From Thermotoga sp. (GTDB lineage Bacteria; Thermotogota; Thermotogae; Thermotogales; Thermotogaceae): 60,520 bases of DNA. The notes below the pieces were generated by a model. The model did not search any database. It was not told where the DNA came from and worked only from the letters and a program-made list of their open reading frames with translations. How positions within the stretch are numbered: the first letter of the stretch is position 1; every line of letters begins with the position of its first letter. Made by a program: the position numbers and the translations under genes. Shown here in pieces: positions 8,624-10,076 of the stretch. The stretch spans positions 1 through 60,520 of the forward strand of contig NZ_JAGGZH010000026.1 of the NCBI RefSeq assembly GCF_021162145.1, given 5' to 3'.

Positions 8624-8645
8624 AAGAGGGGCTGAAGCCCCTCTT
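8624..8645. terminator. Bidirectional terminator between valS and the NifX-like gene
   Basis: AAGAGGGGC (8624-8632) pairs with GCCCCTCTT (8637-8645) around a TGAA tetraloop. On the minus strand the stem is followed by a run of T (complement of 8621-8625), so termination looks stronger for the minus-strand gene; on the plus strand CAGTTTTC follows. Confidence 0.8.
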
Positions 8646-8651
8646 CAGTTT

Positions 8652-9020
8652 TCAATGGTGATGGAATTTTTCCCGGACTTCATAATCCGAGTCTCTCAGC
8701 TGCCCGGTTAAATATTGATTTATCACCTCTTCTACCGTTCCTGAAGCTCCTCTTATCACTTTTATGCCCAAACTCTCAAAGACAGAAATGGCCTTTCTTC
8801 CAATGCCCCTCACTATGACCAATTCCGCTCCTTTCTCTTTTACAAAGTTTGGAACAGCACCGGTGGTATGGTCCTGCGCAAGAGGGTTCTCCTCAACGAA
8901 CACGCTCATTAATTCGTTATTTTCCACCTTCACAAACGCGAAGTAAGGTGCTCTCCCGAAGTGTTCCGATATAGGGGAGTCTTTCCCTTTGTTTTCAGAG
9001 ACTGGAATGGCTATGATCAT
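8652..9020 (-). CDS. NifX/NafY-type dinitrogenase iron-molybdenum cofactor-binding domain protein
   Basis: About 122 residues starting [14 protein letters not shown]; the ATG at 9020 follows GAAGGAGGTG. The single domain contains [10 protein letters not shown] and [17 protein letters not shown], typical of the NifX/NafY/VnfX superfamily, and the protein ends in a His cluster (KFHHH). As I recall, the T. maritima counterpart (TM1816) has a solved RNase H-like fold. No nitrogenase is present, so a role in handling a metal or Fe-S cluster is inferred, supported by the ferredoxin gene 13 bases upstream. Physiological role unknown. Confidence 0.8.
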
Positions 9021-9033
9021 CGTTTCACCTCCT

Positions 9034-9453
9034 TCAAGGTTCAGGATTAGTTTCTGTTTCCTTTGCTGATAGGTGTTCATCGGGTAGCAGAGGTTTTATT
9101 ATTTCAAAAGCCTTTTTCACAATCTTGTTCTGCGCAACCAATTTCTTTATGTAAGAAACATCGGGGAAACTTATTGCCCCCGTTGGGCAAAGATTCATAC
9201 ATGTCTGGCATGCAACCATGCAATTGTAAGGACGTGCCACAATCACTTTTCCTTCTTTTTTGTCGAAGTCGAACACTCGTCTTCCACAAGTTACAAAGCA
9301 AATACCACACGTTGCGCATTTGTCGTAGTTGATGATTGGATACCACTCTATCGTTTTTCTATCTACACCCCACCATGGAATTTCAGAAAGATCACGAATT
9401 TCCCGTCCTAGAGCGTCCTTTCCGATCACTGGAGTGTTTTTGAATTCCGCCAT
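9034..9453 (-). CDS. 2[4Fe-4S] ferredoxin-like protein
   Basis: 139 residues. Eight cysteines form two cluster motifs: C46, C49, C52 and C56 (CxxCxxCxxxC), and C78, C82, C85 and C89 (CxxxCxxCxxxCP). Both have non-standard spacing at one end, and the second has [14 protein letters not shown] 40-residue N-terminal extension precedes the cluster domain and a helical tail follows, so it is not a plain bacterial ferredoxin. ATG at 9453 with SD GGGAGGGAG. That SD lies inside a perfect 11-bp hairpin and is preceded by a 12-codon Cys-rich ORF (see those entries). Electron-transfer partner unknown. Confidence 0.85.
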
Positions 9454-9456
9454 AAT

Positions 9457-9507
9457 CTCCCTCCCTAGCTCGTTTTTTTATTTTCCTAATTGTAAATAGG
9501 GAGGGAG
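9457..9507 (-). promoter_or_regulatory. SD-masking hairpin in front of the ferredoxin gene
   Basis: On the minus-strand RNA, CTCCCTCCCTA (9507-9497) is exactly complementary to TAGGGAGGGAG (9467-9457), an 11-bp perfect stem with a 29-base AT-rich loop. The downstream arm is the ferredoxin Shine-Dalgarno sequence. The upstream arm starts two bases after the stop codon of the 12-codon ORF, within the footprint of a ribosome paused at that stop. The complementarity is seen directly; its regulatory role is inferred. Confidence 0.65.
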
Positions 9508-9509
9508 TT

Positions 9510-9548
9510 TCAGTGACCACACCACCAGCACCGGCATACTTTTCTCAT
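9510..9548 (-). CDS. 12-residue Cys-rich leader peptide (MRKVCRCWWCGH)
   Basis: The minus-strand ORF ATG (9548) to TGA (9510) encodes MRKVCRCWWCGH, with three Cys, two adjacent Trp and a C-terminal His in 12 residues. GAGGTGG precedes the ATG at normal spacing, and the ORF is the first translatable element after a consensus promoter whose start point would lie almost on that SD. It sits 56 bases upstream of the ferredoxin start. I infer a translated leader peptide controlling the ferredoxin/NifX-like genes; a tiny metal-binding peptide is the alternative. No known family recognised. Confidence 0.6.
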   Translation of the reverse strand: MRKVCRCWWCGH

Positions 9549-9566
9549 GACTTCCACCTCAGGAAA

Positions 9567-9595
9567 ATTATATACTTTCTACATATATTTGTCAA
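9567..9595 (-). promoter_or_regulatory. Consensus sigma-A promoter of the leader peptide-ferredoxin-NifX-like unit
   Basis: On the minus strand TTGACA (9595-9590), a 17-base spacer and TATAAT (9572-9567) give a perfect consensus promoter. Predicted initiation near 9560 leaves almost no 5' leader before the GAGGTGG of the 12-codon ORF. Confidence 0.85.
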
Positions 9596-9631: not shown

Positions 9632-9661
9632 GTTTTCATACCTCAAAGGAAGCATTGGAAC
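9632..9661 (+). repeat. Single degenerate CRISPR-like repeat
   Basis: These 30 bases begin GTTTTCATACCTCAAAGGAA and end ATTGGAAC. They match, at about 25 of 30 positions, my recollection of the Thermotoga CRISPR repeat read in this direction (GTTTCCATACCTCTAAGG..., ending ATTGAAAC). No second copy occurs at a spacer's distance on either side, so this is a solitary relic or a repeat-like sequence, not an array. No cas genes are in the window. Confidence 0.5.
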
Positions 9662-9851: not shown

Positions 9852-9869
9852 TAAGCTAAAGTAAACAAC

Positions 9870-10046
9870 GACCCGACGGAGGAGCGCCCGAGATGAGTAG
9901 GCTGCCTCTTCAGGGGAGGAATTGGGGGCAGTTGAAAGGCGAGGGCGCCGAAGGGTATAGGGTTCCTCCCGCCCTATACGCCTGGGGGTATGGGGAATAC
10001 CCATACCACTGTCACGGAGGTCTCTCCGTGGAGAGCCGATCGGGTC
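9870..10046 (+). ncRNA. Lysine riboswitch aptamer (L box)
   Basis: P1 is formed by GACCCGA (9870-9876) and TCGGGTC (10040-10046). Conserved L-box elements follow in order: GGAGGAGCGCCCGAGATGAG, AGGGGAGG, GAAAGGCGAGGGCGCCGAAG and a P5-type hairpin CACGGAG/CTCCGTG near the 3' end. The layout matches the structurally characterised T. maritima asd riboswitch. Lysine binding stabilises P1 and is expected to favour termination ahead of asd, giving feedback control over the whole lysine operon. Confidence 0.95.
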
Positions 10047-10076
10047 TGGAATCAAAAAAAATGATTTCAGACCTGA
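10040..10076 (+). promoter_or_regulatory. Alternative hairpin sharing the 3' strand of riboswitch P1
   Basis: TCGGGTCTGGAATCA (10040-10054) pairs with TGATTTCAGACCTGA (10062-10076) over 15 bp, including two G-T wobbles, around a loop of seven A. The first seven bases are also the 3' strand of P1, so this helix and the ligand-bound aptamer exclude each other. It probably forms in the lysine-free state. Confidence 0.7.

Follow-up and report, generated by a model that had tools for sequence, protein, structure and literature searches.

A 12-codon leader ORF encoding MRKVCRCWWCGH (9510–9548, minus strand) lies upstream of an 8-Cys ferredoxin gene in the 60,520-nt stretch of Thermotoga DNA analysed here (the window), and it is a member of a CxCWWxG-[HYND]-stop family that is used before several genes, beyond the single locus of the preliminary description. 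Our favoured reading, to which we give a probability of about 0.58, is that this is a cis-acting leader of a new family, in which an inducible ribosome arrest at the stop codon opens a stem masking the ferredoxin Shine-Dalgarno (SD) sequence and turns on the ferredoxin and NifX-like genes. The ribosome would translate MRKVCRCWWCGH and, under the inducing condition, the nascent CxCWWxGH chain would hold the stop codon in the A site; the held ribosome would cover an anti-SD arm, an 11-bp stem could not form, and the ferredoxin SD would be left free for ferredoxin and NifX-like protein to be made. Without arrest, the ribosome would depart, the stem would close and the SD would be hidden. Sensing is likely to reside in the Cys-x-Cys/Trp-Trp core.

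All elements of the locus lie on the minus strand. A perfect TTGACA-17-TATAAT promoter (9595–9567; −35 box at 9590–9595, −10 box at 9567–9572) is the sole perfect match in the window, against a chance expectation of 0.02, and comparison of upstream regions showed that it is also kept in Thermotoga relatives, with TTGACA or TTGACC as the −35 box. From the position of the −10 box, transcription is predicted to start near 9560, about 7 nt past it, giving a 12-nt 5′UTR whose SD, GAGGTGG (9560–9554), lies almost at the +1. Such an arrangement is normal in T. maritima, since a class of short, 11–17-nt 5′UTRs, and no leaderless transcripts, has been reported there (Latif et al., PMC3636130). Beginning 2 nt past the leader stop, the 5′ anti-SD arm CTCCCTCCCTA (9497–9507) is perfectly complementary over 11 bp to the 3′ arm TAGGGAGGGAG (9457–9467), which contains the ferredoxin SD. 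The ferredoxin gene under the leader (9034–9453) encodes Fer4 domains of the [4Fe-4S] type and is presumably the ortholog of T. maritima TM1815; it is followed by the second gene of the operon, which is NifX-like (8652–9020; Nitro_FeMo-Co, PF02579), and by a likely intrinsic terminator (8632–8648). The promoter, the SD close to the +1, the ORF with its complementary arm and the nature of the two genes had all been proposed in the preliminary description and are borne out here, the gene assignments by Pfam.

Further upstream, a lone degenerate Thermotoga CRISPR repeat (GTTCCAATGCTTCCTTTGAGGTATGAAAAC, recognised by eye; about 9632–9661, minus strand) lies about 40 nt from the leader promoter, and intact CRISPR-array repeats are present in the corresponding region upstream of the leader in two other loci (L006 and L011). 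Rfam covariance models gave no match in the leader; their sole match in the window is a lysine riboswitch (RF00168, 103.5 bits; 9869–10047, plus strand) before divergent aspartate-semialdehyde dehydrogenase/dapF/dapA-like genes.

The original proposal was staked on conservation of the peptide and its pairing among relatives, and both recur. With the ferredoxin as query, 103 Thermotogota genomes yielded 16 close orthologs (E below 1e-50), nine of which have the leader upstream: that of the window, those of five other Thermotoga, with leaders reading MRKVC[WQ]CWWCGY and starting with ATG or GTG, and those of three distant genomes (L012, MRKICHCWWCGH; L014, MRRVCQCWWRGH; L013, IRKVCFCWWHGD). No leader was found upstream of the remaining seven. 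Compared with the window, the leaders of L007 and L012 each differ by six synonymous and two nonsynonymous changes (P = 0.0002 and P = 0.0004, respectively); judged by these substitutions, the leader is under purifying selection at the amino-acid level both in Thermotoga and in distant Thermotogota. One ferredoxin homolog (L020, genome G096) has an internal stop and a disturbed frame at its start, and is possibly a decaying gene or a sequencing error.

Outside the ferredoxin context, a search of the phylum Thermotogota with the core pattern added one locus, in a Thermosipho genome whose ferredoxin has no leader. A scan of 84,980 genomes returned 72 exact-pattern matches, nine of which represent short ORFs that have a plausible start and immediately precede a gene, making this a rare family; the other 63, which fall within coding sequence in another frame or have no started short ORF, were discarded. 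The same grounds, judged from the surrounding sequence, removed all 20 core-pattern matches on viral contigs, and likewise L036, L138–L141, most of L156–L201 and L203–L213, L215–L218, L221 and L223. The hosts comprise Thermotogota, Dictyoglomota, Spirochaetota, Fibrobacterota, Bacillota and two other lineages. With gene families assigned by Pfam for the representatives scanned and by sequence likeness to those for the remainder, the leader stands before rhodanese and TauE/SafE genes in Chitinispirillaceae; before TauE/SafE, then DUF364, disulfide oxidoreductase and NifU-like genes, in Spirochaetes; before TauE/SafE in Syntrophomonadaceae, where an ATG, GTG or TTG start is lacking and ATT is possible; before an MFS gene, downstream of a thioredoxin gene, in Deltaproteobacteria; before a ferredoxin gene, downstream of an ArsR-like gene, in Dictyoglomus; and before FmdE, downstream of thioredoxin/CcdA-like genes, in one further bacterium. 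Four added Spirochaetota loci place it before TauE (twice), before rhodanese and TauE, and before an ArsP permease gene, and a second Dictyoglomota locus came from further genome searches. Both Dictyoglomota loci encode, after the ferredoxin, a conserved 117-aa protein (MKGLLLCVCQGTCPSFQGM...) with no Pfam match, located in L202 at 339–693 counted from the first leader Cys codon.

Across 21 loci, the peptides, 12–16 aa long and with no proline at the C terminus, end in C-x-C-W-W-x-G followed by His (6), Tyr (11), Asn (3) or Asp (1) and the stop. Numbered from the stop, Cys-8, Cys-6, Trp-5, Trp-4 and Gly-2 are invariant and codon -1 is NAY in 21/21, while the x positions vary, Cys is written as TGC and TGT, and Gly uses three codons. 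Because the residues are invariant while the Cys and Gly codons vary, selection acts on the amino acids. This stop-anchored pattern of amino-acid conservation favours termination arrest, of which it is the expected trace, over sensing of codon supply.

The stem of the window stands out from its surroundings. Extended, its arms pair over 14 nt at 93%, and among the 71 genes of the window, which form the background for this comparison, it is the top helix between an upstream segment and an SD, with a score of 29 against 20 for the runner-up; its z-score against dinucleotide shuffles is −4.5, and it is predicted to persist at 70 degrees. Stems masking the next SD were found at eight Thermotogota loci (six Thermotoga, genome G101 and Thermosipho; shuffle p 0.000–0.014). 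In Thermosipho, MKKRKVCNCWWVGH and its stop are followed by TGTATCCCTCC...GGAGGGATACA, an 11-bp stem covering the SD of a SLAC1/TDT transporter gene. The arm sequences differ among hairpin loci (CTCCCTCCCTA, CCCTCCTCT, TGTATCCCTCC), although the purine-rich SDs limit how much true covariation can be observed. In 8/8 hairpin loci, the 5′ arm, 8–11 nt long, begins 1–4 nt past the leader stop.

This near-fixed distance from stop to anti-SD arm speaks against the possibility that the product is a metal- or sulfur-binding micropeptide of 12–16 residues acting in trans, with its position before a gene reflecting operon organisation only. Selection on the amino acids and a CxC motif resembling a metal ligand would suit such a peptide, as would the frequent location of the leader directly downstream of an ArsR or thioredoxin gene. 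Yet the peptides are very short and every real member lies 48–148 nt upstream of the next gene start, and we consider a role in trans unlikely. At two loci, in keeping with the favoured reading, the leader start codon overlaps the stop of the upstream gene, thioredoxin in L013 (permease, thioredoxin, leader, ferredoxin; names read from sequence) and ArsR in L202 (NifX, ArsR, leader, ferredoxin, the 117-aa protein, DGC), which places the leader within an operon, where it may be coupled.

The same geometry bears on where the ribosome would have to pause. By established toeprint geometry, a ribosome whose A site contains a stop codon shields about 10–12 nt beyond it. With the 5′ arm beginning within 1–4 nt of the stop, opening of the stem would therefore require a ribosome at the stop, and one held 4–8 codons upstream would leave the arm free, so that starvation for Cys or Trp would not expose the SD. 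The preliminary description had allowed a pause either at the Cys/Trp codons or at the stop; the latter fits the geometry, whereas the former leaves the arm out of reach. A classical amino-acid attenuator, in which a shortage of charged tRNA slows the ribosome at Cys/Trp codons and frees the SD, as in trp and mycobacterial cysteine leaders, would account for the three Cys and two Trp codons among the 12 and for the Cys-rich downstream proteins. Against it, besides this geometry, Cys and Trp are no more conserved than Gly-2, the last codon and the placement relative to the stop, residue -3 is Cys in just 7/21 loci, and none of the members stands directly before a gene for cysteine or tryptophan biosynthesis, the downstream genes being ferredoxin, TDT, TauE, rhodanese, ArsP, MFS and FmdE. 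We give this explanation little credence.

The last sense codon is worth separate consideration: it is NAY in all 21 leaders, a codon class read by queuosine tRNAs, and the final residues (His, Tyr, Asn, Asp) are four chemically different amino acids, all encoded by NAY codons. Part of the 21-locus set came from an NAY-biased pattern; with the last three codons left free, 10/10 real short ORFs in Thermotogota (the other four matches lie inside other frames) and 5/5 in 393 Spirochaetota genomes still end in x-G-NAY-stop. Under-modified tRNAs, lacking queuosine at NAY codons or ms2i6A at Cys/Trp/Tyr codons (via the Fe-S enzyme MiaB), might delay the ribosome as it reaches the end of the leader, a reading to which these 15 loci, found without the restriction, and the constancy of NAY despite the changing residue lend some appeal. 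It is nevertheless improbable: Gly-2 is kept through different codons, indicating amino-acid selection, no queuosine or tRNA-modification genes lie downstream, and the biased pattern contributed to the set. Constitutive coupling, in which ordinary leader translation melts the stem and aids initiation at the next gene with no sensing, is favoured by a geometry that would let any terminating ribosome open the stem and by the existence of members without a hairpin, but coupling would not by itself keep CxCWWxG-NAY across phyla, and it is a similarly poor prospect.

If arrest at the stop is the shared element, its output is not, because the SD-masking hairpin is absent from L012, L014 and most members outside Thermotogota, all eight hairpin loci belonging to that phylum; a universal SD-masking hairpin is thereby ruled out. 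In hairpin-free lineages, arrest would need another output, such as a terminator or Rho. An intrinsic terminator is not universal either, being seen only in L191 and, weakly, in L059. In L191 (Spirochaetota), the leader stop is overlapped by a terminator-like stem (AAAGG/CCTTT) followed by a T run, suggesting transcription attenuation there; other members outside Thermotogota have no clear structure. In L195, an AT-rich 14-bp hairpin starts from the leader stop and ends short of the SD of the TauE/SafE gene.

The genes under the leader, which deal with sulfur, arsenic-type and redox chemistry, form a guild. In leaderless Thermotogota, the ferredoxin adjoins a TDT gene (L010, L015) or lies near TauE-like/ArsR-like genes (L019), with names read from sequence, and the leader therefore precedes genes that are mutual neighbours elsewhere. 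Where characterised, TauE and SSU1-type TDT proteins export sulfite. ArsR proteins include As(III) sensors and sulfane-sulfur sensors (e.g. PMC12423496). As the same leader precedes TauE/SafE, SLAC1/TDT, rhodanese and ArsP genes, the most probable class of signal is a thiol-reactive or thiophilic species (sulfite, polysulfide/persulfide or an arsenic-like metalloid), although the diversity of the controlled genes makes this a guess. The earlier suggestion of cysteine, Fe-S or metal sensing thus survives in its sulfur/Fe-S/metal theme, which fits the genes found under the leader elsewhere, and not as Cys-codon sensing. More tentatively, and with the odds against it, the leaders may constitute a cross-phylum stop-arrest family whose CxC/WW nascent chain directly senses thiol-reactive sulfur or metalloid in the exit tunnel and has been redeployed upstream of exporter, rhodanese and Fe-S genes, with downstream switches that differ among them.

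Were the proposed mechanism and signal class correct, Thermotoga, Spirochaetes, Dictyoglomus and others would have in common a small, transferable sensor by which ribosomes detect sulfur or metalloid stress, overlooked because ORFs of 12 codons are seldom annotated, and poorly understood genes (the TM1815-type ferredoxin, NifX-like, TauE, TDT, ArsP and ArsR) would be tied into one response. The leader core offers a short candidate arrest sequence, as in MRKVCRCWWCGH and MKRKRICHCWWRGH, and the identity of the signal would show the role of the transporters and ferredoxins. We found no leader with a CxCWWxG-[HYND]-stop motif described in the open-access literature, and the family is apparently undescribed.

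Among known systems, mycobacterial cysteine attenuators also have a Cys-rich short upstream ORF, in which tracts of Cys codons sense Cys supply; here there are two to three Cys, and other positions are no less fixed. CutF of Rhodobacter capsulatus (PMC9973294) likewise has a Cys motif in a nascent chain, followed by a stem-loop hiding the next SD, and is metal-dependent, but CutF is exported, carries a Sec signal and has CxxxC and a proline-rich C terminus, in contrast to our peptides of 12–16 aa with no signal or terminal prolines. The copper-responsive CruR/DUF2946 uORF (PMC9426467) likewise has a Cys motif in its nascent product, senses metal and controls the next genes; it differs in its length of about 145 aa in B. 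pertussis, its Rho dependence, its CXXC and its RAPP arrest motif, neither of which occurs here. The leader family has neither CxxC/CxxxC with a proline-rich arrest motif nor a signal peptide or DUF2946. Closer are the ErmCL/ErmBL leaders (PMC8274638, PMC4935803), in which a short leader ORF precedes an SD-hiding hairpin that a held ribosome opens, as it would here. This erm-type architecture, already recognised in the preliminary description, was found in the window and seven other Thermotogota loci, and not in L012, L014 or other phyla; in Erm leaders a macrolide arrests the ribosome within the ORF, whereas the present geometry would require it to halt at the stop, and the genes that follow do not include one for drug resistance. 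TnaC of the E. coli tna operon (PMC8429421) differs in its sequence, with a critical Trp and a Pro before the stop, in the tnaAB genes downstream, in sensing free Trp and in acting on Rho, whereas our leaders have a CxCWWxG-NAY core, joined in Thermotogota by an SD-masking stem. What the two have in common is conserved residues at a fixed distance from the stop, here in 21/21 loci, and, as we infer for our leader, termination arrest that leads to downstream expression. Judged by its stop-anchored conservation and hairpin geometry, the leader is probably a termination-arrest peptide that joins TnaC-like logic to an erm-type output.
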